A stretch of DNA of 64,000 nucleotides from Pelatocladus maniniholoensis HA4357-MV3. GTDB taxonomy: Bacteria; Cyanobacteriota; Cyanobacteriia; Cyanobacteriales; Nostocaceae. The notes under the pieces are model-generated. The model was not told the origin of the DNA and ran no database searches. It saw only the letters and a program-made list of their open reading frames with translations. The stretch lies in assembly GCA_019359115.1 (NCBI GenBank), contig JAHHHW010000070.1, positions 1 to 64,000 of the forward strand, in the 5' to 3' direction. Shown piece by piece: positions 11,270-22,410 of this stretch (its first letter is position 1; every line of letters begins with the position of its first letter). A program made the translations under genes and the position numbers.

Positions 11270-12190
11270 AAATAAATCTCCTGATTGGGGAATGGGGAGA
11301 CAAGGAGGAGAATAAACACCAATAACACCAATAACAAATGACCAATGACCAATGATCAACAATCTTAAAAGTTAACCTAGTTTATTTCTGTAATTTTTAA
11401 TGATAGTTTTAATTTTTTATGCCAAAATGCTTAAAAATAAAATTATATGATGTTTCTATATTTTTAATGTTCATCAAATGTATATTTACTCAGGAATACT
11501 TCCTGGAAATCCTGACTTTTTTCTTACTAAAATTTTGCACAATTTTCAATACTTTGAGGCTGAGTACTAGCCAGAAAAATTCAGTTTATATTTTTAGCTT
11601 TTGATTTTTGGCTCTTGAGCTTTGATTTCCAGAAATGGTGATTGAGTACATTAATTCCAGCACCTTAGTTGAAAAATGCGAGTCCCTATACCTCAAAATA
11701 CTAGTACCCATACCCCAAAAAATTTTTTAAATACTGCTGCGATAGGAATTATCAGCTTTGAGTACAAACTTAATTAATTTAATAATCTTGATCCGGCTGC
11801 AAATAAATCTTCTCGACTAAGCCAGCTGCTATAAAACCTATAGGATTTACGCAGAGATTCCCCTCTACCCCCCCCTGCAAAGGGGGGGACTTCTTAAACC
11901 CTCACAGCTTTAAACAAGATGAACTAAGATATGAGGCGGCTTTGAATGTGTAAGTTCTCTGACAAAAATTCAGCTTTGTCCAACATTAGTTACTATTTAC
12001 TTCTTGCTGATTATCAGTTTTCACATTTGTATGTTCATTGATAACTGATAACTGATAACTGATAACCGATAACTGAGAACTGATAGGGCTTAACTTTTGG
12101 GTGTTCATACCTTAATTATTATACAGGGTAAATTAAGACAAAAAGGTACCGTCTCACGGGGTGCATACTGCCTAGCAAGGGAGAGCCAAA
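11270..12190. other. Long repeat-rich intergenic region
   Basis: No credible gene is seen. It contains an AT-rich stretch (11360-11650), a block at about 11840-11900 with facing homopolymer arms (CTACCCCCCCC and GCAAAGGGGGGG), and AACTGAT 7-bp tandem repeats at about 12040-12085. A 61-codon frame at 11419 has no ribosome binding site and looks like chance. Confidence 0.5.
12040..12085. repeat. 7-bp short tandem repeat (AACTGAT type)
   Basis: Five to six near-perfect copies of a 7-mer (GATAACT / AACTGAT) occur in tandem. The same unit recurs at 22360-22410. Short tandemly repeated heptamers are characteristic of heterocystous cyanobacteria. Confidence 0.8.
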
Positions 12191-12646
12191 ATGAGACTAC
12201 AAATTTCCAAGTTTCTCACAGTTTGTTTACTGACTTTAATAGTGCTTTCACCTGAGCTAGTAGTATTGAGTGTGGTTTGGGAGCAGCATATGCAGTTAGT
12301 AGAAATACAGCATTTAAGCTGTAAATTAGAGCAAATACAAGCAGGTGTATTTAGTATTATTGGCAGCCAAAATTTTGATTTATTCACTCTTGATCAAGAA
12401 TGTCAAAATTTCGCTCAAGATGCAGCTACCATTAAATTTTTTGATGCCAATTTTCTGCATATCTTGCTCACTCCTACTCAACTATATAAACTTGTTGATT
12501 GCTTGAAATGGTTCTTTTTGTTATTTCCTATAGGTTTAGGTATATTCTTTTTTTTATATGACAGGTATCTTGTTTATCGCGCTACAGTTTTTCAACAACA
12601 AGTAGATAAGCTAGAAAGGTTATGGCAAGAAAGTATCGAACAATAA
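12191..12646 (+). CDS. Small two-helix membrane protein, unknown
   Basis: This 151-residue protein has an N-terminal hydrophobic segment (about residues 8-28, FLTVCLLTLIVLSPELVVLS), a middle portion of about 80 residues with three Cys (CKLEQ, DQECQ, DCLKW), and a second membrane segment (about 107-127, WFFLLFPIGLGIFFFLYD). It ends in a charged tail (QQQVDKLERLWQESIEQ). AGGGAGAG lies 6 nt before the ATG. It is followed by two small same-strand genes that may be co-transcribed. No family was recognised. Confidence 0.65.
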   Translation: MRLQISKFLTVCLLTLIVLSPELVVLSVVWEQHMQLVEIQHLSCKLEQIQAGVFSIIGSQNFDLFTLDQECQNFAQDAATIKFFDANFLHILLTPTQLYKLVDCLKWFFLLFPIGLGIFFFLYDRYLVYRATVFQQQVDKLERLWQESIEQ

Positions 12647-12664
12647 GGAACGTACAATAAAAGC

Positions 12665-12931
12665 ATGACAATTACAGAAGAACGCCAAAATCTATACTTT
12701 GATTTGATTGATAAGTTACTTAGCTGTCCTAATGGTCAGGAACCAGAAGTTTTAGAAACTCACCCAGAATTACTTGATGCTGGTTTTATAAAAACAATAC
12801 TACAAGTTGCTGCTGTATTTGCACATCAAGGTAATGATGAAGGAGCAAAGTTTTTAATTCACATTGCACGTGAATTATCAAAACAACTAGGATTATATCC
12901 TGAAATTCCTGAAGTCCCAGCTAAGGAGTAA
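12665..12931 (+). CDS. Small protein resembling the N-terminus of CHAT/TPR proteins
   Basis: This 88-residue acidic helical protein carries ERQNLYFDLIDKLLSCPNGQE, then VLETHPELLDAGFIKTIL. From memory, cyanobacterial CHAT and TPR proteins often start with a similar block (a helical lead with CPxGEE, then VDAGLV). Here the block stands alone, with no TPR or protease following. It is separated by only 2 nt from the next gene, so the two are probably translated from one mRNA. Function is unknown; an adaptor role is a guess. Confidence 0.65.
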   Translation: MTITEERQNLYFDLIDKLLSCPNGQEPEVLETHPELLDAGFIKTILQVAAVFAHQGNDEGAKFLIHIARELSKQLGLYPEIPEVPAKE

Positions 12932-12933
12932 AG

Positions 12934-13245
12934 ATGTTATTGACTGCAACTGACGCAGGACAGATCGCTTTAGAATTTCTGATGGCTGAATGGAATGTTT
13001 TAGAAGCAGATAGAGAGTGGTTTGTCATTGTAAATTCTCGTCTGATTGGCATGAGTTGGTACATTGTAGAAATAGCCATAGAGGGATTTCCTGATCGGTG
13101 GTATATGCAAGTTTATGACACCGGAGAATGTGACCCAGACTATACATTTATTTCTCCGATTCGCGGTTCAGAAGGATACGCTGATCTGACAGATTTACCA
13201 AGATTGGTAGCTGAGGTCTTAGTGTCAGAACGTCATTTTCGCTAA
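12934..13245 (+). CDS. Conserved-looking hypothetical protein
   Basis: This 103-residue soluble protein has an alternating strand pattern (REWFVIVNSRLIGMSWYIVEIAI, then RWYMQVYDTGECDPDYTFISP). AAGGAG sits 5 nt before the ATG inside the end of the preceding gene, indicating translational coupling. The compact alpha/beta layout suggests a small globular domain. No family, signal peptide or membrane segment is recognised. Confidence 0.65.
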   Translation: MLLTATDAGQIALEFLMAEWNVLEADREWFVIVNSRLIGMSWYIVEIAIEGFPDRWYMQVYDTGECDPDYTFISPIRGSEGYADLTDLPRLVAEVLVSERHFR

Positions 13246-13601
13246 TCAGTAAGAATAAGAAATCAAATTTTTTAGATATTGCTTGTGTGTTGTTCTGTTT
13301 GTGACGAAAATTTTTACTTGTCACAAACTTTTCTTTTTTCGTATTTAGTTTATTAATAAAATATGTGGTTTTGATATTATTAAATTCAAAACTTTTAGTG
13401 TTTATTCTATGATTTAGTCATGTAAATATGACAAAATTATGCTATATTAATATTGTGATAAAGCTTACAAAAATAGTGCATGGTGGCTGAAAAAAACTAT
13501 TGATTTGAAAGCGTATTAAGAATGAAAAATGAAGTGTTTATTTTCATCATTCATTATTCAGGCTTAATTATGCCTTTTGCCTTCTTGCAATAGGTTTTGT
13601 C
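13246..13601. other. AT-rich intergenic region
   Basis: This is very AT-rich with no gene seen. Two facing arms GTGACGAAAATTTTT and AAACTTTTC do not form a convincing terminator. It probably contains the promoter of the gene at 13602. Confidence 0.4.
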
Positions 13602-13943
13602 ATGATTAGAGAAGACATATTATCCAAAGAATACCTGAGAATCGTCAAAAAATACTACCCCAAAATCGGAGAATTATTAGATGACTGTTATGTGAAAGTC
13701 ATCACCAATTATTGGGGACGACCTCCAAAACGCTTGCGCTACATTGGAATTTATTGTTCTGATGAAATAATGCCTCTTGTGCAAGTCCACAAAGAAATAC
13801 TCCGAGATTTAGCAGAGAATATGGGGTTAGTTCAGGTAGTTTTCTTGAATGCTTCACGACTGTTACGCGATCCAATGTCGAAAATCAAGCAAGCAGATCC
13901 GCGCTTGTGGTTAGATTTGCATTGGGTTGCAATGTCTGAATAA
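13602..13943 (+). CDS. Hypothetical protein
   Basis: This 113-residue soluble protein reads MIREDILSKEYLRIVKKYYP and later LRYIGIYCSDEIMPLVQVHKE, with a helical C-terminal half. It is a plausible cyanobacterial conserved hypothetical by composition. No clear ribosome binding site precedes the ATG. The downstream gap (13944-14113) holds HIP1 sites and low-complexity CAACAAACAACG sequence. Function is unknown. Confidence 0.55.
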   Translation: MIREDILSKEYLRIVKKYYPKIGELLDDCYVKVITNYWGRPPKRLRYIGIYCSDEIMPLVQVHKEILRDLAENMGLVQVVFLNASRLLRDPMSKIKQADPRLWLDLHWVAMSE

Positions 13944-14113
13944 TAGCGATCGCAATGAAAACTGGAATTTTTTACGAAAACCATCATCAACACATTCATG
14001 GCGATCGCATAACGATTGACTGCAAACCTTTTCAGAAGTTGGTTGTTGATTGTTGATTGGTAAACACCAAACAACAAACAACGATCAACAATCTTAAATC
14101 AAGGGCTAACATA

Positions 14114-14482
14114 ATGAAAAAACCCTTCTTACCTCCAGATGACATGCCACCCAATGAGGTGACGCCACAGGATAGAATGCTGTATCTGGAATTAGAACAA
14201 TCAATTGGTGCATGCTTTTTTCAAGCGTGCGATCGCATCACACAAATGTTGTTGTCTACTTGTCAGTGGTATCTCACAACCAAAGACGGTAGTCTCAAAT
14301 TAATCATTGACTCCCCAGACATCGTAACCTATTGGCATATCGTCAACAATATTCCTCAGCTAGGAAGTAAGCTAGAAAAATATAGCAGTGACGCCAAAAT
14401 CCGCGTTTATCCTCCCATGGGTAAAGGAAGACCATTTGAAATTAGCGTCAATGAAATTTCGGCTTATCGAGATTGGCTTTAA
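14114..14482 (+). CDS. Hypothetical protein
   Basis: This 122-residue soluble protein has a Pro-rich start (MKKPFLPPDDMPPNEVTPQD), a helical middle (LYLELEQSIGACFFQACDRI) and a strand-rich end. The ATG at 14114 is chosen over the frame start at 14057 because the extra 19 residues are encoded by low-complexity CAACAA repeats. No known domain is recognised. The neighbours give no functional clue. Confidence 0.55.
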   Translation: MKKPFLPPDDMPPNEVTPQDRMLYLELEQSIGACFFQACDRITQMLLSTCQWYLTTKDGSLKLIIDSPDIVTYWHIVNNIPQLGSKLEKYSSDAKIRVYPPMGKGRPFEISVNEISAYRDWL

Positions 14483-14823: not shown

Positions 14824-14923
14824 AATCTAAACAGTATTGGAACGCATACTGGTGAAATTTGATGTAAAAAAATATTTATACCGGATTTTTGAGTTAAAAA
14901 TCTGTTTTATGACTTGTGAAGCT

Positions 14924-15043
14924 AATTTACAACTCAAAAACTTAATTTACAACTCAAAAACTTGATTTACAACTCAAAAACTTGATTTACAACTCAAAAA
15001 CTTAATTTACAACTCAAAAACTTAATTTACAACTCAAAAACTT
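14924..15043. repeat. Six tandem copies of a 20-bp unit
   Basis: Six consecutive copies of AATTTACAACTCAAAAACTT differ only at the first base (A or G). The 20-bp period is not a multiple of three, and no frame runs through it. A partial seventh unit follows. Function is unknown. Confidence 0.9.
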
Positions 15044-15217
15044 GATTTATTTCAAGATAACGAGGTAAAGCATACAATCACACTTTTTTATTTAAGTACT
15101 TAAACGGTATTTAGTTACACATATTGTTTCTTCATTCCCTATTCCCTATTCCCTGTTAAGAGTTTCCTATCTCCACGAATGAATTTAATTTTGTCGAACT
15201 GCTTATTTTGAAGAAAT

Positions 15218-15457: not shown

Positions 15458-15848
15458 TGATTTTCTTTGCTATAATTTCTAGTCTTATTTTCTATAGCAT
15501 AGACTGATCTGAGAATTAACTATATAGTTGGCAGCGATTAAAGTGTCACAGCTAAAATATCCTCCCCCGAAGGATAGAAATTTATTGAATCGCGATCGCA
15601 CAATCGTACAGATGCTTTTGACAGATACTTTACAGGGATCGAAGCAATAGTCCATGCGACAATAGGAAAACAAGCTTCAAAATAGTCTTAGCCAAGATTT
15701 TCATATAATTTAAGTCTTTTGACGACATTTGCTGCATAATTCCCTGTTTGCAATTCCCATACATAAATAGCAACATCTTGTCTTGGATATTTTGAGGACT
15801 AGGTTGACTCATTAACAGTTGACCTCAGCAAAAAGCAGAGGACACTTC
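15458..15848. other. Intergenic region before the sigma-like gene
   Basis: No convincing gene is seen; short minus-strand frames lack ribosome binding sites. It probably holds the promoter of the gene starting at 15849. Confidence 0.4.
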
Positions 15849-17516
15849 ATGAAAAAACGTGAAGACATCATAGAAAAGTTCTCAACGTTTCTCAGTTTTG
15901 GTAATCCCGGTAGTGATGGAAATCCTATTTGGCGAACAGATCCAGAACTAGAACGTTGTATGAGGAGTTTAGTAGAGTCACAAAGAGATGCTAATGAAGA
16001 ATTTTGGGCGCAATACTTTCTAAAAGTAATCAGAGAGAAATCAACACAACAGGAGACGGAGACACAAGAACAAGGGGAACAAGGAGGACAAGGAGGACAA
16101 CAGGACACGGGAAATTTCTCTGCATCACCGCATCACCCTTCGGGTGGTTCCCTCCGGGACGCTGCGCGAACGCAGTCGCTACAACGGAGGGTACCTCCGC
16201 AACGCCCTCCTCACCGCATCACCACGTCTTCTTTCATCGCGGGGAAACATTTATCTGCATATTTGCAAGAAGCTTGCTTGTGGGCTTCTCAAAAATCTTA
16301 TCAAAGATTTAAATATCTCCAGCATAAATATCCACTAGAAGAATTTTTTCAAATTGCTAATGCAGCTGCTAATCCAGCAAGTAAACTTCTCAAAAATTTT
16401 AATTTTGAATATCCACTGACGAATATTGAAGGATATGCTAAAACAGCAATCATAAGACTAATCAGCAATACCATTTATCAACATGATCTAGAAGCAAAGA
16501 GAGGAAAATTTTCTGATTATGGTTTACTAAAAGATTTAAACACTAAAGAATTACGCGAAGCATTGCTTTATCAAGGGATCAATCACACAAAACTTGATTT
16601 ATACTGCTTGGTTTGGCAATGTTTAGATAAAATTTATCAGCCAGCACGTTGTCAAGGAGGGCGTAGTTTAGAACCTCCAAATCAACAGCATCTACAAGAA
16701 ATTGCCTATTGCTATAATCAAAAAATCAATAAACTAGATTTTCCTACAACCTCAATTTCTAGTGAAAAAGTTCAACATATGTTATCAATTTGTGTGCGAT
16801 CTGCTCGTGATTATCGCACAAAACGTTTTTTACCATTAGAAGAATATGATAATGTTTCTGATCCCATACCTACACTTTGGGATAATCTCATACAACAAGA
16901 AACATGGGAGCAAGTTCAGTCAATTGTTTCAAATTTATTTGCATCTCTGCCAGAAGCTGGTCAAACCATATTTAAACTTTGGCAAGGACTAAATTTAACT
17001 CAAACTGAAATAGCGATAATTTTAAAAAATAAGTATCCAGACTTACAAAAACAATATCAAGTAGCTCGTCACTCAGATAGATATATTAGAAATCTATTAA
17101 AAAAAATAGCTATTGAATTGAATAAGCTTGACCCAGATATTTGCTTTAAAAATGAAAAAGAATTGGAAAATATCAAGGATGCTATGAATGAATGTTTGCG
17201 CTTTCATTGTCAAAAAATATTTTACTCGACATTAGATAAGATTGTAGAGCAGTTTCCAGAACAAGAAAAAATATCAATGCTTACAAATCAAATTCATACT
17301 TTAGAGCAAACAAATTATCAACAAATAACTGTCTTTATTTCCGAAGGCTCTCAGATAATTTCACATTTAAAAAAATATCTAGCTATATGCTTCAAAAACG
17401 AATTAGAGGAGAGTATAAAATTAGAAAAAAATTCTTTGGCAATAGTCAATCACAAAATAGCTGATTTTGTTGAAGAATGGTTAAAAACTAAATTTTATTT
17501 TACTAACCAGGGATGA
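15849..17516 (+). CDS. Sigma-70 region-4-like regulatory protein
   Basis: This 555-residue protein has one recognisable part, at about residues 358-424, which resembles sigma-factor region 4 or a related HTH (LPEAGQTIFKLWQGLNLTQTEIAIILKN, then YIRNLLKKIAIELNKL). The N-terminal half is helical and could hold a diverged region 2, but no clear -10 recognition motif is visible. Residues about 75-135 are unusual (Gly/Gln then Arg/Pro-rich) and are encoded by a GC-rich repeat. ATG 15849 is favoured over the frame start 15819 by its typical MKKRED start. Its stop overlaps the next frame. It heads a module with DUF1822, CHAT-CHASE2 and DUF928 genes and is the likely transcriptional component. Confidence 0.65.
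   Translation: MKKREDIIEKFSTFLSFGNPGSDGNPIWRTDPELERCMRSLVESQRDANEEFWAQYFLKVIREKSTQQETETQEQGEQGGQGGQQDTGNFSASPHHPSGGSLRDAARTQSLQRRVPPQRPPHRITTSSFIAGKHLSAYLQEACLWASQKSYQRFKYLQHKYPLEEFFQIANAAANPASKLLKNFNFEYPLTNIEGYAKTAIIRLISNTIYQHDLEAKRGKFSDYGLLKDLNTKELREALLYQGINHTKLDLYCLVWQCLDKIYQPARCQGGRSLEPPNQQHLQEIAYCYNQKINKLDFPTTSISSEKVQHMLSICVRSARDYRTKRFLPLEEYDNVSDPIPTLWDNLIQQETWEQVQSIVSNLFASLPEAGQTIFKLWQGLNLTQTEIAIILKNKYPDLQKQYQVARHSDRYIRNLLKKIAIELNKLDPDICFKNEKELENIKDAMNECLRFHCQKIFYSTLDKIVEQFPEQEKISMLTNQIHTLEQTNYQQITVFISEGSQIISHLKKYLAICFKNELEESIKLEKNSLAIVNHKIADFVEEWLKTKFYFTNQG
16066..16245. repeat. Repeat-derived insertion inside the sigma-like gene
   Basis: The stretch starts with AGGACAAGG-type repeats and continues with GC-rich palindromic repeats (CTTCGGGTGG, GACGCTGCGCGAACGCAGTC, AACGGAGGG). 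This composition is typical of intergenic repeats in this window and unlike the AT-rich gene around it. The frame stays open through it. Boundaries are approximate. Confidence 0.6.
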
Positions 17517-17521
17517 TTTAT

Positions 17522-18760
17522 ATGAACTTAGAAATGGATGAATTGATAACGCTTTATCCAGAGAAATTATGGTTAGAATTATCATCTCAAGAACAAGAAT
17601 ATGCATGGCAAATATCTGCTCAAAACTATTATTCTAACCCTGCTGCTCGTTGGAATTCCTACCTAAATTCTTTATGTTTGAATTCTTTTTTAAATATGTT
17701 GAAACAAGACCCAGATTTGGGTGAAACTCCAAATGTGTGGCCAAGCTATCATCAGTTACCCAGTTTTTGGGAATTTGTAAATGGTACTTGTATAACTTTG
17801 GGTGATCTGCGACTAGTGTTAATCCCCACCGATAAAAGTAATCTGAGAGAATTTCGCATCCCTCAAGAATGGGTTGATATTCCCAACTGGGTAGCGAATT
17901 ATTATCTAGCTGTGCAGATCAATCTAGAAGAAAACTGGTTAGGAGTGTGGGGATACACAACTCACCAACAAATTCGCGAGCAAGCTAATTTTGACCTGAT
18001 AGACCGAACTTATTTATTAGATGAAGAGGATTTAATTGCAGATATAAATGTCATGTGGGTAGCACGAGAAATATGTTCTGTACAAAAACCAGAGGTAAAC
18101 ATTTTGCCAACATTGTCAAGCATACAAGTAGACAAATTACTTAAGCAACTAGATCAATGGACTCCTGATTTACCCGAAAATATAAGTCATGAAGAATGGA
18201 TGGCACTACTAGCACTAGATGAAGAAAGGCAAGATTTGTACCAAAAAAGGCTTTTAAAACATCAAGGGAATCTTGTTGAATACAACCACTCTTTGGTAAA
18301 CAACTTAAGTAAATGGTTTCAAAATGTCTTTGAAGCAGGTTGGGACTCTTTTGACACCTTCTGTAGCTCACAACAACATACTTTAGCTGTGCAATTCCGG
18401 AGTGATGCTACTTTGAATGAAGTTCGGGTTAAGGGAGCTAAGTTAATTGATTTAGGGATGCAATTAAGGGATACTGCTGTTGTACTGCTGATTGGTCTAA
18501 CATCAGAGATCGATGAGAAAGTTAGTATCCGTGTCCAGCTACATCCAGCCAATGAAGAGGTGTATTTACCACCTGATCTAAAATTGCTTTTGCTTTCGGG
18601 GTCAGGAAACATTATTCAGGAAGTACAATCTAGAAGTCACGACCATTTTATTCAACTCAAAAAATTTAAATCTCCTCCAGGAAAAAGTTTTAGTTTACAG
18701 GTCGCTTTAGGTGATATCAGTATTAAAGAAAAGTTTATGCTTGAGAAGCTTGTTGGCTAA
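17522..18760 (+). CDS. DUF1822 family protein
   Basis: This protein of about 412 residues matches, by memory of the family, cyanobacterial DUF1822 proteins. It opens with LYPEKLWLELSSQEQEYAWQ, followed by helical segments and a strand-rich C-terminal half (AVVLLIGLTSEIDEKVSIRV) that may form a beta-sandwich. ATG 17522 has AGGGA at good spacing; the ATG at 17513 overlaps the previous stop by 4 nt and is the alternative. It is followed after 5 nt by the CHAT-CHASE2 gene, so the three genes look like one operon. DUF1822 proteins often lie near sigma-like and CHASE2 genes, but their biochemical role is unknown. Confidence 0.75.
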   Translation: MNLEMDELITLYPEKLWLELSSQEQEYAWQISAQNYYSNPAARWNSYLNSLCLNSFLNMLKQDPDLGETPNVWPSYHQLPSFWEFVNGTCITLGDLRLVLIPTDKSNLREFRIPQEWVDIPNWVANYYLAVQINLEENWLGVWGYTTHQQIREQANFDLIDRTYLLDEEDLIADINVMWVAREICSVQKPEVNILPTLSSIQVDKLLKQLDQWTPDLPENISHEEWMALLALDEERQDLYQKRLLKHQGNLVEYNHSLVNNLSKWFQNVFEAGWDSFDTFCSSQQHTLAVQFRSDATLNEVRVKGAKLIDLGMQLRDTAVVLLIGLTSEIDEKVSIRVQLHPANEEVYLPPDLKLLLLSGSGNIIQEVQSRSHDHFIQLKKFKSPPGKSFSLQVALGDISIKEKFMLEKLVG

Positions 18761-18765
18761 GAGCC

Positions 18766-21126
18766 ATGAGTAAACTGGTTGTATTAAACCTGGGAAAGGG
18801 TAATTTAAAGCAAGGCTTTCCCTCTGTGACTGCTGCACTGTGGGAAGATGGTAATCCAATCGCCATGCAATTTACGGGTAGCCTACCACCTGCACCAGAA
18901 CTTTGGTCACTCTACAAACGTTGGCAACTGCTTTATCAATTACTTTATGAAACTCTCTATCCTGGCTCTGATTGGCGTAATTACACAGATGACCTAGAGG
19001 ATATAGATATCGAAATAGATGAAGAAGATGTCACGAATGTTTCCTCTATTGATTTTAGTAATTTATGCGATGATTTACACAAACAAATTAATTCCTGGTT
19101 GAAATCTGAGCCATTTCGTCACATCGATCAAAAATTACGCACAAAATTAAACCCAGATGATGAAATACGCTTAATTTTAGCAACAGAAGACAACCAAGTT
19201 AGGCGTCTACCTTGGCATTTGTGGAATTTTTTTGAAGATTACCAAAAGGCGGTGGCATGTTCAAGCATTTTAGAGGTTGAGCAAGTTAAGCCGTTACGTA
19301 AAAATTCTGGACGAAAAATCAGGATATTAGCAGTGCTGGGTAATAGTCAAGGAATCGATGTCCAACAAGATCGGACGATTTTAGAGCAATTACCAGGCGC
19401 GGAAATTATTTTTTTAGTCGAACCACAAAGACAAGAATTGGATCGGTGGCTTTGGGATAAACGAGGCTGGGATATGCTGTTTTTTGCAGGCCATGGTTCA
19501 ACGGATGTGGAAAAAGAAAATGGTCGAATTCATCTCAATCAAACAGATACTTTGACGATCGCCCAATTAAAAAATGCTCTCAAAGCAGCGATCGCACGGG
19601 GTTTAAATTTAGTCATTTTTAACTCCTGCGAAGGTATAGAATTAGCACGGGAATTGGGTTCTCTGCAAATTCCGCAAATGATTGTCATGCGAGAACCAGT
19701 CCCCGATTTTGTCGCCCAGGAATTTTTAAAGCACTTTCTAGAAGCTTTTGCTCATGGGGAATCTTTCTATCTAGCGGTGCGGGAAGCACAGGATAAATTA
19801 CAGGGTTTGGAAAATGAATTTCCCTGTGCTAGCTGGCTACCAGTAATTTGCCAGAACCCAGCCGCAGAACCGTTAGTTTGGCCAGAACAGCGTGTGAGCG
19901 ATCGCCGCCCAATTTTGCCCAAGCGACGCATTCTCCCACTCATCTTGAAAGCAAGTTTAGTAATAACAACCCTTGCTATTGGTATCAGATCGCTAGGAAT
20001 TTTGCAGTTGGGAGAACTCGCAGCCTTTGATTTATTGATGCGATCGCGCCCTCCTGAAAAAACCGATCCTCGTATACTTATAGTAGAAGTGACAGAAGCT
20101 GATGTCAGCGCTCAACCTGCCACAGAAAGAGCAGGAGCATCACTATCAGACAAAGCATTGGCTCAAGCAGTGAAAAAACTGGAACGCTTCAACCCTCATG
20201 TTATTGGTTTGGATATCTATCGCGAAAATCCAGCCAAACCAGAATATGCAGATTTAGCCAAAACGATGCAAACAAGCGATCGCTTTATTGCTATATGCAG
20301 AGCCAGTGAAGACAAAACTAATCCTGGTGTTCCACCACCCCCAGAAGTTTCTACCCAAATCCAACGTCAAGGTTTTAGTGATGTCATTGATGATCCTGAT
20401 AACGTTATCCGTCGCCAAATTTTGGCTATGGCTCCTGCACCTCCCTGCGCGACTGATAAATCTTTTAACTTTCGCCTTGCTAGCCGTTACTTAAAAAACC
20501 AAGGTATTCAACCTAAACTGACACCTGAAAATAATTGGCAGTTTGGCAATGTGGTCTTTAAAACTTTAGAGCAAAACAGTGGCGGTTACAGTGATATAGA
20601 TAATCTCGGTTATCAAGTTTTATTAAATTGGCGTGCTGCCGATCCAGTCGCCCAAACAGTTACTCTCAAAGAGGTTCTCAACGATCAACTCACTGCCGAA
20701 TTAGTCCGCGATCGCATAGTGATTATTGGTACAACTGCCGAAAGTTTTCACGATTACTGGTCTACTCCCTACACTAGCCAAATGTGGCCCCACAAGGAAA
20801 TGCCAGGAGTTGTTGTACAAGCACATATGGTTAGTCAGATTCTCAGTGCTGTGCTGGATCATCGACCACTATTATGGGTTTTACCAAAGTGGGGTGAAAA
20901 CCTGTGGATTTGGGTTTGGTGTTTAGCGGGAGGTGTACTGGCTTGGCAGTTGCGATCGCGCTTACACTTGATCATTGCCTTAATCGGTGCGATCGGTCTT
21001 TTATATCTGGCTTGTTTGTTCTTATTAATACAAGGATTATGGATACCACTGCTTCCATCAGCACTAGTCTTATTAACAGGTGGAGCAACAGTGGCTACCT
21101 TAAGTTCATCTCAAAGTGAAGAATAA
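18766..21126 (+). CDS. CHAT protease fused to a CHASE2 membrane sensor
   Basis: This 786-residue protein starts with a CHAT (caspase-like) protease domain of about 390 residues; the His/Cys dyad is H243 in FFAGHGS and C288 in FNSCEG. A membrane helix follows (about 390-410), then a CHASE2 sensor domain (FDLLMRSRPPEKTDPRILIVEVTEADV) on the far side of the membrane, and a cluster of membrane helices at the C-terminus (WIWVWCLAGGVLAWQL onward). Both catalytic residues are present. There is no kinase or cyclase after CHASE2, so the protease is the only visible output and the architecture suggests signal-gated proteolysis. The substrate is unknown; the neighbouring sigma-like protein is one candidate. 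Confidence 0.85.
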   Translation: MSKLVVLNLGKGNLKQGFPSVTAALWEDGNPIAMQFTGSLPPAPELWSLYKRWQLLYQLLYETLYPGSDWRNYTDDLEDIDIEIDEEDVTNVSSIDFSNLCDDLHKQINSWLKSEPFRHIDQKLRTKLNPDDEIRLILATEDNQVRRLPWHLWNFFEDYQKAVACSSILEVEQVKPLRKNSGRKIRILAVLGNSQGIDVQQDRTILEQLPGAEIIFLVEPQRQELDRWLWDKRGWDMLFFAGHGSTDVEKENGRIHLNQTDTLTIAQLKNALKAAIARGLNLVIFNSCEGIELARELGSLQIPQMIVMREPVPDFVAQEFLKHFLEAFAHGESFYLAVREAQDKLQGLENEFPCASWLPVICQNPAAEPLVWPEQRVSDRRPILPKRRILPLILKASLVITTLAIGIRSLGILQLGELAAFDLLMRSRPPEKTDPRILIVEVTEADVSAQPATERAGASLSDKALAQAVKKLERFNPHVIGLDIYRENPAKPEYADLAKTMQTSDRFIAICRASEDKTNPGVPPPPEVSTQIQRQGFSDVIDDPDNVIRRQILAMAPAPPCATDKSFNFRLASRYLKNQGIQPKLTPENNWQFGNVVFKTLEQNSGGYSDIDNLGYQVLLNWRAADPVAQTVTLKEVLNDQLTAELVRDRIVIIGTTAESFHDYWSTPYTSQMWPHKEMPGVVVQAHMVSQILSAVLDHRPLLWVLPKWGENLWIWVWCLAGGVLAWQLRSRLHLIIALIGAIGLLYLACLFLLIQGLWIPLLPSALVLLTGGATVATLSSSQSEE

Positions 21127-21540
21127 CAATAAAAATATTTCAGAGGGAACGGGGAACGGGAAATGGGAAAAAGGGAAACCCACGCTTAAAGTTTTTTTAC
21201 TCTTAACTCTTAACAAAGAACTCTTAACCTGAAGTTCCCTGTTCCCTTATTTTGTAAACATGCATATTATCAACTAAATTGTGCAAAAATTTATCATTAT
21301 TTAGCATAAAAAAATTTTATGTTTTCACACTACTCCCTAAGTGCATAATCTTAATTTAATTACACCAATGAAAATAATATAAAGGCTAGTACTACTACCT
21401 TGGAAGTTACCCATTCACACATTCACGCATTCAGAAGAACTATATTTTATAGCTTTAGCCTTTTATAAAGGGTAGATTGATTTCTGACGTACTGTACTAG
21501 ATAAACAAACTGTACTGTAGTTCAACCAAAAAAATGACAA
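21127..21540. other. Intergenic region between CHASE2 and DUF928 genes
   Basis: Low-complexity facing repeats (GGGAACGGGGAACGGG and GTTCCCTGTTCCC) at about 21145-21250 may fold, followed by AT-rich DNA. The gap suggests that the DUF928 gene has its own promoter. No gene is seen here. Confidence 0.4.
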
Positions 21541-22323
21541 ATGACTAAATCAAAATGGGCATTAGCGATCGCTTGTATGTTGCTTGTCTGGATGAGCTAT
21601 TTTGTACCAGAAATAGCCCAATCCAATCAACCAGTAAATCACAATTTGAATACTAGCAATTCTCAGAATATAGAAATTCACTTTCAAGACAAAGAACCAG
21701 ATGGATCAAGGCGAGGTAGACCTAATAATAGGGTAGGAACTGGAAGCCGTGGTGACTGTCCGTCGGTGAATGTACCAATAATTGCATTGATACCAGAAAA
21801 AAATGTCGGTTTGACGGTTGATGATAATCCTAGCTTTTGGTTTTTTGTACCGTATAAATCACAAGACACACCCGTTGGAAAATTTGTATTACAGAATGAA
21901 GCAGATGAAGAAATCTATCAGACTAAATTTACTCTGCCTAAGACGCCAGGGTTTGTGAGCTTAACAGTGCCATCTACAGTACCCTTAGAACTTAACAAAG
22001 ATCATCAATGGTACTTCAAACTTTATTGTTCTCGCCAAAGACTACTGAACCCAATATTTGTGCGTGGATGGGTGCAAAAGATAGCAATCCAACCAAACTT
22101 AAAAGGTCTTTTGAAATCAACTACTAAACCACGACAGCACATCGCAATTTATGCTGAAAATGGGATTTGGTACTCAGCCTTGTCTGAGTTAGCTAAACTC
22201 CGCTTAAATGAACCAAAAAATCCTATACTTGCCAAAGATTGGGCTAATTTGTTGGAGGATGTTGGTTTAGCAAATATTGCATCACAGCCTATTGTGGGAG
22301 AAGTTATAGAAGAAAATAGATAA
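21541..22323 (+). CDS. Secreted DUF928 family protein
   Basis: This 260-residue protein has a signal peptide (about residues 1-28, ALAIACMLLVWMSYFVPEIAQ). It then carries the DUF928 pattern: a Gly/Arg-rich segment (RRGRPNNRVGTGSRGDCPS), the phrase LIPEKNVGLTVDDNPSFWFFVPY, a strand-rich middle, and a helical tail HIAIYAENGIWYSALSELAK. It probably acts outside the cytoplasmic membrane. It follows a CHASE2 protein, and a paralogue at 39223-39963 also follows a CHASE2 protein, so it may be a partner of the extracytoplasmic CHASE2 domain. The biochemical role is unknown. Confidence 0.8.
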   Translation: MTKSKWALAIACMLLVWMSYFVPEIAQSNQPVNHNLNTSNSQNIEIHFQDKEPDGSRRGRPNNRVGTGSRGDCPSVNVPIIALIPEKNVGLTVDDNPSFWFFVPYKSQDTPVGKFVLQNEADEEIYQTKFTLPKTPGFVSLTVPSTVPLELNKDHQWYFKLYCSRQRLLNPIFVRGWVQKIAIQPNLKGLLKSTTKPRQHIAIYAENGIWYSALSELAKLRLNEPKNPILAKDWANLLEDVGLANIASQPIVGEVIEENR

Positions 22324-22359: not shown

Positions 22360-22410
22360 AATTTGATAACTGATAACTGATAACTGATAACTGATAACTG
22401 ATAACTGATT
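22360..22410. repeat. 7-bp short tandem repeat (GATAACT type)
   Basis: Six to seven copies of GATAACT/AACTGAT lie between the DUF928 gene and a convergent methyltransferase gene. Same unit as at 12040-12085. Confidence 0.85.

Follow-up and report, generated by a model that had tools for sequence, protein, structure and literature searches.

A conserved sigma-like, DUF1822 and CHAT-CHASE2 gene set in the cyanobacterium Pelatocladus maniniholoensis and its possible role in sigma factor control

What might a caspase-like protease with a predicted membrane sensor have to do with a sigma factor? The question is raised by positions 15849-22323 of a 64,000-nt stretch of contig JAHHHW010000070.1 (the window, meaning that stretch at its full length) from the cyanobacterium Pelatocladus maniniholoensis HA4357-MV3, whose genome is about 6.7 Mb. 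Four genes lie here on the + strand, encoding a sigma-like protein, a DUF1822 protein, a CHAT protease fused to a CHASE2 domain, and a DUF928 protein; an initial annotation had placed them in just this way, and the Pfam and NCBIfam matches agree with it. It had also proposed that a signal outside the membrane triggers proteolysis, perhaps of the sigma-like protein, leading to a transcriptional or death-like response. We find that the module is real, conserved, and of a published kind. As to its working, our tentative reading, to which we give slightly less than an even chance, is that a sigma factor dedicated to the module is controlled, through DUF1822, by a one-component receptor-protease in the membrane. 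If it is true that caspase-like proteases act as sigma switches and not as executioners, this would bear on the debate over proteases in cyanobacterial 'programmed cell death', and many cyanobacteria have DUF1822 and CHASE2 proteins.

The sigma-like gene (15849..17516, 555 aa), the DUF1822 gene (17513..18760, 415 aa; PF08852, E 1.8e-89), and the CHAT-CHASE2 gene (18766..21126, 786 aa) look like one operon, the first two overlapping by 4 bp and the last two being separated by 5 bp. The DUF928 gene (21541..22323, 260 aa; PF06051, E 7.5e-60) follows 414 bp further on and has a promoter-like site of its own, which suggests that it is probably transcribed separately; the single module of the initial annotation holds for the conserved sigma/DUF1822/CHAT set, with DUF928 falling outside the tight operon. 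The most likely start of the sigma-like gene is ATG 15849, the one that lines up with the starts of its relatives, and not TTG 15819, which would give a longer open reading frame (ORF). The DUF1822 protein is 93% identical to its counterpart in Fischerella muscicola PCC 73103, and the Pelatocladus genome holds four DUF1822 genes, each beside a CHAT gene (4/4).

Conservation of the gene set

A query built from DUF1822 only (a 12-sequence alignment) found 355 relatives in 84,980 species genomes, the best 80 of which were used; these loci are biased to close relatives, and their neighbours were called by local profile hidden Markov models. A sigma gene lies within 500 bp upstream of DUF1822 in 76/79 of the loci with enough flank (median gap 5.5 nt) and a CHAT gene within 1.5 kb downstream in 71/77 (median gap 21 nt), with both present in 67/76. 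For two of the three loci without an upstream sigma (L147 and L151), the sigma gene is found downstream of CHAT.

The sigma-like protein occurs in 22/60 genomes of the order (E 1e-5), and its profile in at least 61/386 genomes of the phylum (E 1e-15), this being a lower bound since the phylum search scored 4 candidates per genome. Among 20 sigma-anchored loci from the order-wide search (rows 2-21 of 38, the weaker rows being excluded), DUF1822 is adjacent in 19 and CHAT in 6; sigma without DUF1822 is seen in L055. Scored as lacking an adjacent CHAT are L045, with an N-terminal-type CHAT gene 1.7 kb beyond the other side of sigma, L049, whose CHAT-matching ORF lies some 4 kb downstream, and L058, with a convergent TPR-CHAT gene. 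A sigma match was also found in 14 of 18 further stretches chosen for variety. DUF1822 follows in 14/14 of these, and CHAT comes directly after it in six (L161, L163, L166, L168, L170, and L171); CHAT lies further away in L167 and L172, and in L160 the contig ends. That the genes are conserved together, on which the initial annotation depended, holds for sigma and DUF1822 in every sample (19/20, 76/79, 14/14) and more weakly for CHAT in the wider ones (6/20, 6/14).

These proteins could be co-expressed regulators without a common pathway, and the lack of an adjacent CHAT in 14/20 and 8/14 of the sigma-anchored loci would fit such a loose association. We consider it very unlikely, as the same gene order with small gaps recurs over many genera, in the divergent class II described below, and in outlying loci.

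The C-terminal half of CHAT proteins is exchangeable among the relatives, where it is CHASE2, nSTAND1, nSTAND1-WD40, nSTAND1 with a sub-threshold GUN4 match, or periplasmic-binding-protein-like. At least five of the 20 sigma-anchored loci (L047, L049, L051, L056, and L057) have no adjacent CHAT and carry a Peptidase_C14-nSTAND1 caspase gene within 2.4 kb of the sigma-DUF1822 pair (gaps 31-2337 bp; 4/5 also with WD40; 2/5 on the same strand, 3/5 divergent), which hints that even the caspase family can be swapped; Peptidase_C14 was sought in selected large neighbours, which makes 5/20 a lower bound. Because the CHAT C-terminal half is exchangeable and another caspase family stands near the pair in at least 5/20 loci, sigma plus DUF1822 looks like an output core to which caspase and sensor are swappable additions.

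Sensor swapping that includes nSTAND NTPases, together with immunity and apoptosis as the published frame for such neighbourhoods (PMC8195603, represented here, like the other papers cited, by part of its text), would also suit a role in defence or programmed death, with the sensor detecting a threat, CHAT killing or arresting the cell, and sigma mainly controlling expression of the module. This explanation is in our view distinctly unlikely. No PADLOC defence model fits the four module proteins, the sole match being at chance level (E 0.051), a Pfam scan of the same four proteins recognised no death-effector family, and the receptor's sensor is predicted to lie on the outer side of the membrane; nothing that we found supports the death-like response of the initial annotation.

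In many loci a gene of about 216 aa lies upstream of a short DUF1822; we refer to these as class II and to the window type as class I. The class II profile matches SigK, an extracytoplasmic function (ECF) sigma factor (E 1.3e-5), although 6/10 single class II members fail to match NCBIfam at E 0.01; a sigma-like gene thus precedes DUF1822 in both classes. Comparing the class II profile with that of class I gave no significant result (probability 1.0 on a 0-100 scale, E 0.056), so this test does not show that the two sigma classes descend from a common ancestor. In six Calothrix-group loci (L093, L094, L096, L098, L100, and L103) a class I module faces a class II sigma-DUF1822 pair in head-to-head orientation, the CHAT gene there being on the strand opposite DUF1822. 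DUF1822 is present in 53/60 and CHASE2 in 56/60 genomes of one order sample.

A natural sigma-DUF1822 fusion, which would be a sign of contact, does not occur among the matches listed, and an 828-aa open frame in G309 taken as a candidate resolved (L159) into two separate ORFs. In L155 (7980-17160), an RTX-repeat gene and a two-partner-secretion gene stand between DUF1822 and CHAT-CHASE2; next comes a TPR gene that has the promoter-like motif 61 nt 5' of it.

The encoded proteins and the place of DUF1822

In the receptor-protease, CHAT (PF12770, E 3e-16) covers residues 135-351, preceded by a conserved N-terminal region, and CHASE2 (PF05226, E 1.8e-65) covers residues 401-723. The CHAT-peptidase dyad is intact, as the initial annotation had it, with His243 and Cys288 invariant in 32/32 aligned CHAT-CHASE2 proteins including that of the window (alignment A7). 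Hydropathy places hydrophobic segments at residues ~388-416 and ~731-780. CHASE2 is usually an extracytoplasmic sensor. Because the hydrophobic segments flank CHASE2 and this is its usual topology, CHAT is predicted to be cytoplasmic and joined through the membrane to an extracytoplasmic CHASE2, which agrees with the fusion first described. A CHAT-CHASE2 profile found no match among PDB chain sequences at E up to 0.1. The CHAT-CHASE2 frame is broken into two or more ORFs in L079, L087, L096, L102, L105, and L149, either by decay or by sequencing error.

The sigma-like protein is recognised by several lines of similarity. A single-sequence scan of a 565-aa ORF gave TIGR02937 (sigma70-ECF) over residues 148-420 (E 6.7e-8), scoring 32.3 bits where the curated cut-off is 42.9. 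Compared with PDB chain sequences, a profile of 25 sequences, the window's included (A2), matched region 4 of the sigma factor 1l0o (E 3.3e-9) and also of FliA, and region 2 weakly (WhiG 7lq4, E 0.0013; 8b3z, E 0.0017). The 50 structural matches listed for the AlphaFold model (pLDDT 82.2, pTM 0.44) are sigma factors, mostly in whole-chain alignments with a root-mean-square deviation above 20 A. Residues 50-213 superpose on domain 2 of SigA (4x8k; Z 9.6, 3.1 A, 109 residues), a match to be taken with caution since for helical proteins a Z under 13 is cautionary, and residues 2-212 superpose on an RpoS fragment that comprises part of region 1.2 and region 2 (5h6x; Z 8.4, 2.7 A, 96 residues). Foldseek returned no significant E-value for the model (best 0.15). 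Sigma domains 2 and 4, the hallmark of the sigma-70 family, are thus both found, the region 2 match being weak; the sigma region 4-like sequence of the initial annotation does belong to the sigma family and is joined by a domain 2 in both profile and fold comparison.

ECF (group 4) sigma factors are defined by sigma domains 2 and 4 only. The window protein departs from them in its score below the cut-off, an N-terminal part that superposes on fragments containing region 1.2, a long middle, and a C-terminal extension. Given the sub-cut-off TIGR02937 match, the profile matches, the domain superpositions, and the non-significant Foldseek result, we call it a divergent sigma-70-family member and not an ECF factor, with a layout of sigma domain 2, helical middle, sigma domain 4, and helical C-terminal extension.

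The DUF1822 model (pLDDT 87.4, pTM 0.65) has an alpha/beta N-terminal part and a C-terminal beta-sandwich, joined by low-confidence stretches at residues ~250-320. With VIA-align, residues 50-185 match Hjc resolvases best (2wj0; Z 7.0, 2.8 A, 109 residues), and Ig-like domains are matched with Z up to 6.6; matches with Z under 8, such as these, are possibly common arrangements according to the tool's note. The catalytic motif of PD-(D/E)XK nucleases is D...E-x-K. In class II DUF1822, D81, G88, E91, and C92 are invariant in 22/22 sequences and are gone from the window protein (alignment A1); these residues and the Hjc match hint, speculatively, at a nuclease-like fold. The hydropathy scan gave no hydrophobic segment for the window protein. 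An assignment of DUF1822 as a TPR protein was rejected, as the Pfam scan of the window protein gave no TPR match; HEAT_2 matches were found in 3/8 DUF1822 proteins scanned.

Which of these proteins has evolved most closely with which was addressed with distance matrices, whose partial correlations were computed for 60 complete triples and for a long-sigma subset (n=30). In the 60 triples the partial correlations are 0.54 for DUF1822-CHASE2, 0.51 for sigma-DUF1822, 0.38 for DUF1822-CHAT, and 0.14 for sigma-CHAT; in the 30 long-sigma triples they are 0.49 for sigma-DUF1822, 0.54 for DUF1822-CHAT, and -0.03 for sigma-CHAT. Since the sigma-CHAT value is low and those of the DUF1822 pairs are high, this pattern weakly favours DUF1822 as a go-between of sigma and CHAT.

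The same values bear on cleavage of the sigma-like protein itself, by which CHAT would activate or destroy it, as the initial annotation had suggested. Adjacency of the genes and a low-confidence linker in the window protein (residues 82-122) are in its favour. Part of this linker is a repeat-like in-frame insert (approximately 16135..16215, + strand), which has no part in the mechanism proposed below, is missing in six aligned relatives, and has a diverged copy elsewhere in this genome, within a different open frame (G000:C140:22513-22680). The linker joining the N-terminal part to the remainder is otherwise variable and short in many relatives (alignment A2), and CHAT correlates more with DUF1822 than with sigma (0.14 and -0.03); cleavage of sigma is therefore the less likely version, and we would be surprised to see it confirmed.

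An autoproteolytic scheme fares somewhat better, and we still think it unlikely. Here CHAT would respond to the signal by cutting the receptor polypeptide to which it belongs, and the signal would be passed on by the piece set free and not by a fragment of DUF1822, with sigma as one output among others. Such a scheme is close to the proposal printed for the related EACC2 systems (PMC8195603) and suits the direct joining of variable sensor domains to CHAT; it leaves unexplained the partial correlations and the position of DUF1822 as the closest constant partner of sigma.

A promoter-like motif and the DUF928 gene

Aligned upstream regions of Fischerella and relatives share a conserved block 5' of the sigma gene. 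In the window this is a promoter-like site, TGCATAA-N16-CCCATA (15733..15761, + strand), which starts 116 nt 5' of the sigma-like ATG, and a second site, TGCATAA-N17-CAATG (21342..21370, + strand), starts 199 nt 5' of the DUF928 ATG. Following 33 TGCATAA cores upstream of sigma, C[AC]AT[AG] occurs at spacing 17 in 15 and at 21 in 2, and at the remaining spacings from 10 to 24 in 0/33, with GATA at 17 in 6 more. Information rises again at CCCATA, 16 nt past the first box, with little in between; the first box was fixed by sequence choice, so only this second rise is a result.

The full motif is found in 21/98 sigma upstream regions (three duplicates having been removed from 101), 5/52 for DUF928, and 2/20 for class II sigma, compared with 5/1006 other ORFs of the same loci, two of these five being DUF1822 genes; antisense matches numbered 1 and 2. 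By sigma class it occurs in 22/51 long versus 0/50 short (first box in 1/50 short), and the motif belongs to the long-sigma branch. The same spacing is seen 5' of sigma-like genes of divergent genera, and sites at both the sigma and the DUF928 genes recur in two Fischerella-group genomes (L197 and L198). Among the Calothrix-clade loci, the first box of the sigma site is altered by a single base in 5/6, and the DUF928 site reads GCATAAAA, with no CCCATA box, in 5/6. The Pelatocladus genome has 10 motif sites versus 0 for a reversed control. We read the motif as a candidate target of the module's own sigma factor, which would provide autoregulation and bring DUF928 under the same control; such a predicted promoter makes the idea directly testable by reporter.

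A genome-wide regulon drawn from the motif was rejected, as matches are unselective and the downstream genes have no visible theme; those 3' of some sites encode a glycosyltransferase, a HEAT-repeat protein, a papain-family peptidase, a PNKP-type ligase, a TPR protein, and an ABC transporter. Our claim is therefore limited to the two sites at the module itself. A separate short-sigma motif (TGCGTCC and similar words) was also rejected, these words being the coding start (MRPRQ and variants).

The DUF928 protein has a hydrophobic, signal-peptide-like N-terminus (residues 7-26). Among loci with enough flank, DUF928 follows 37/66 CHASE2-type versus 0/9 other DUF1822-linked CHAT genes (Fisher p 0.002, a statistic that ignores the kinship of loci), and without the 80 DUF1822-anchored loci the count is 14/16 CHASE2-type versus 0/8 others. 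From this we infer that DUF928 may be an extracytoplasmic partner of CHASE2; DUF928 is generally common (55/60 genomes).

A possible mechanism and its published relatives

Starting from the computed gene order, dyad conservation, sigma-family similarity, and shared promoter-like motif, we infer a scheme of topology, signal, anti-sigma role, cleavage, and promoter recognition. In the resting state, DUF1822, a candidate anti-sigma factor or adaptor, would hold the sigma-like protein inactive. An extracytoplasmic signal would be read by CHASE2, perhaps with exported DUF928, and this reading would activate the cytoplasmic caspase-like CHAT domain. CHAT would then act on DUF1822, whose cleavage or remodelling would release the sigma factor, the cleavage step being proposed by analogy with known systems. 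Once free, the sigma factor would guide RNA polymerase to its own operon and to DUF928 through their TGCATAA-N16-CCCATA promoters, and this promoter use would set up a positive feedback.

The nearest published relatives are the EACC2-caspase proteins, the subject of a 2021 study in eLife reportedly by Kaur, Burroughs, Iyer, and Aravind. That work describes variable C-termini that include CHASE2, an ECF sigma factor and DUF1822 accompanying EACC2-caspases in the majority of TRADD-N-independent neighbourhoods, and a proposal of autopeptidase activation and transcriptional output (eLife 2021, PMC8195603). The likeness lies in a variable C-terminus and in sigma and DUF1822 neighbours, and the caspase-type domain that ends the constant N-terminal alpha+beta module of EACC2 proteins may have its counterpart in CHAT, which follows a conserved N-terminal region; in our loci the C-terminal domain is indeed highly variable, and a sigma factor and DUF1822 are its neighbours. 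There are differences too. DUF1822 is called a TPR protein in that paper, whereas no TPR match is found in the window protein, whose model combines an alpha/beta part with a beta-sandwich. The main text has 0 occurrences of DUF928, and the part of it represented here has no promoter motif (PMC8195603). The promoter-like motif upstream of the sigma operon and DUF928, the DUF928-CHASE2 link, and the distance correlations are new here.

A second relative is Craspase, from a 2022 study in Science whose first author is said to be Strecker. In this type III-E system (CASP), the TPR-CHAT protein Csx29 cuts Csx30, which binds and inhibits CASP-sigma (Science 2022, PMC10028731), so that a CHAT protease, a middle protein, and a sigma factor share one locus as they do here. 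The Craspase trigger is the binding of target RNA by Cas7-11, whereas here CHAT is fused to a membrane sensor. A third relative is the DegS-RseA-RpoE or RsiW type, in which a stress signal leads through a protease to sigma release by anti-sigma proteolysis (PMC10028731). There the membrane protein is the anti-sigma factor and is cut by separate proteases; unlike this, the membrane protein of the present module would be the protease, and DUF1822 has no hydrophobic segment.

A fuller version of our reading would make DUF1822 a new anti-sigma family cut by caspase-like proteases, the CRISPR-free, receptor-driven counterpart of Csx29-Csx30-sigma, with the protease fused to a sensor that can be exchanged, found widely among cyanobacteria and in multiple copies, and with a long-sigma branch that adds the TGCATAA-N16-CCCATA promoter and self-induction, including of an exported DUF928 co-sensor. 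We regard this version, taken whole, as possible and rather doubtful.

Several results weigh against control of sigma by the receptor-protease through DUF1822. The sigma-CHASE2 partial correlation is 0.48 in the long-sigma subset, a link not expected under the model. Against PDB chain sequences the DUF1822 profile gave nothing convincing, with 12 weak, unrelated matches at E up to 1, none of them named Csx30. An adjacent CHAT is found in only 6/20 and 6/14 of the wider sigma-anchored samples, and therefore many sigma-DUF1822 pairs work without one. As for the motif, 29/51 long-sigma regions and the short-sigma class are without it in full, the 59 other genomes of the order give 96 matches versus 59 for the reversed control, and 2/10 matches in the Pelatocladus genome are at this module. 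The sequences counted are moreover related, and some contigs occur in both sources, which makes the counts non-independent.

In the open-access literature no experiment on the module was found, subscription papers being mostly outside the search. Besides the EACC2 study, DUF1822 is named there in one paper, a strain comparison (PMC9679502, in part), DUF928 occurs in one (PMC5587647, in part), and CHAT is absent from the main text of a 2024 survey of cyanobacterial sigma factors (PMC11119718).

Upstream of the module, a tandem array of 6.3 copies of the 20-bp unit TAATTTACAACTCAAAAACT lies at 14923-15049, and five small ORFs without a Pfam match lie at 12191-14482, two of which a related genome also has 5' of its module (L197, 613-1494). 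Arrays of the heptamer TGATAAC are found at 12039-12085 and 22364-22409. A same-genus genome encodes a protein with a telomere resolvase (ResT/TelK) catalytic domain (L187, 617-1759).

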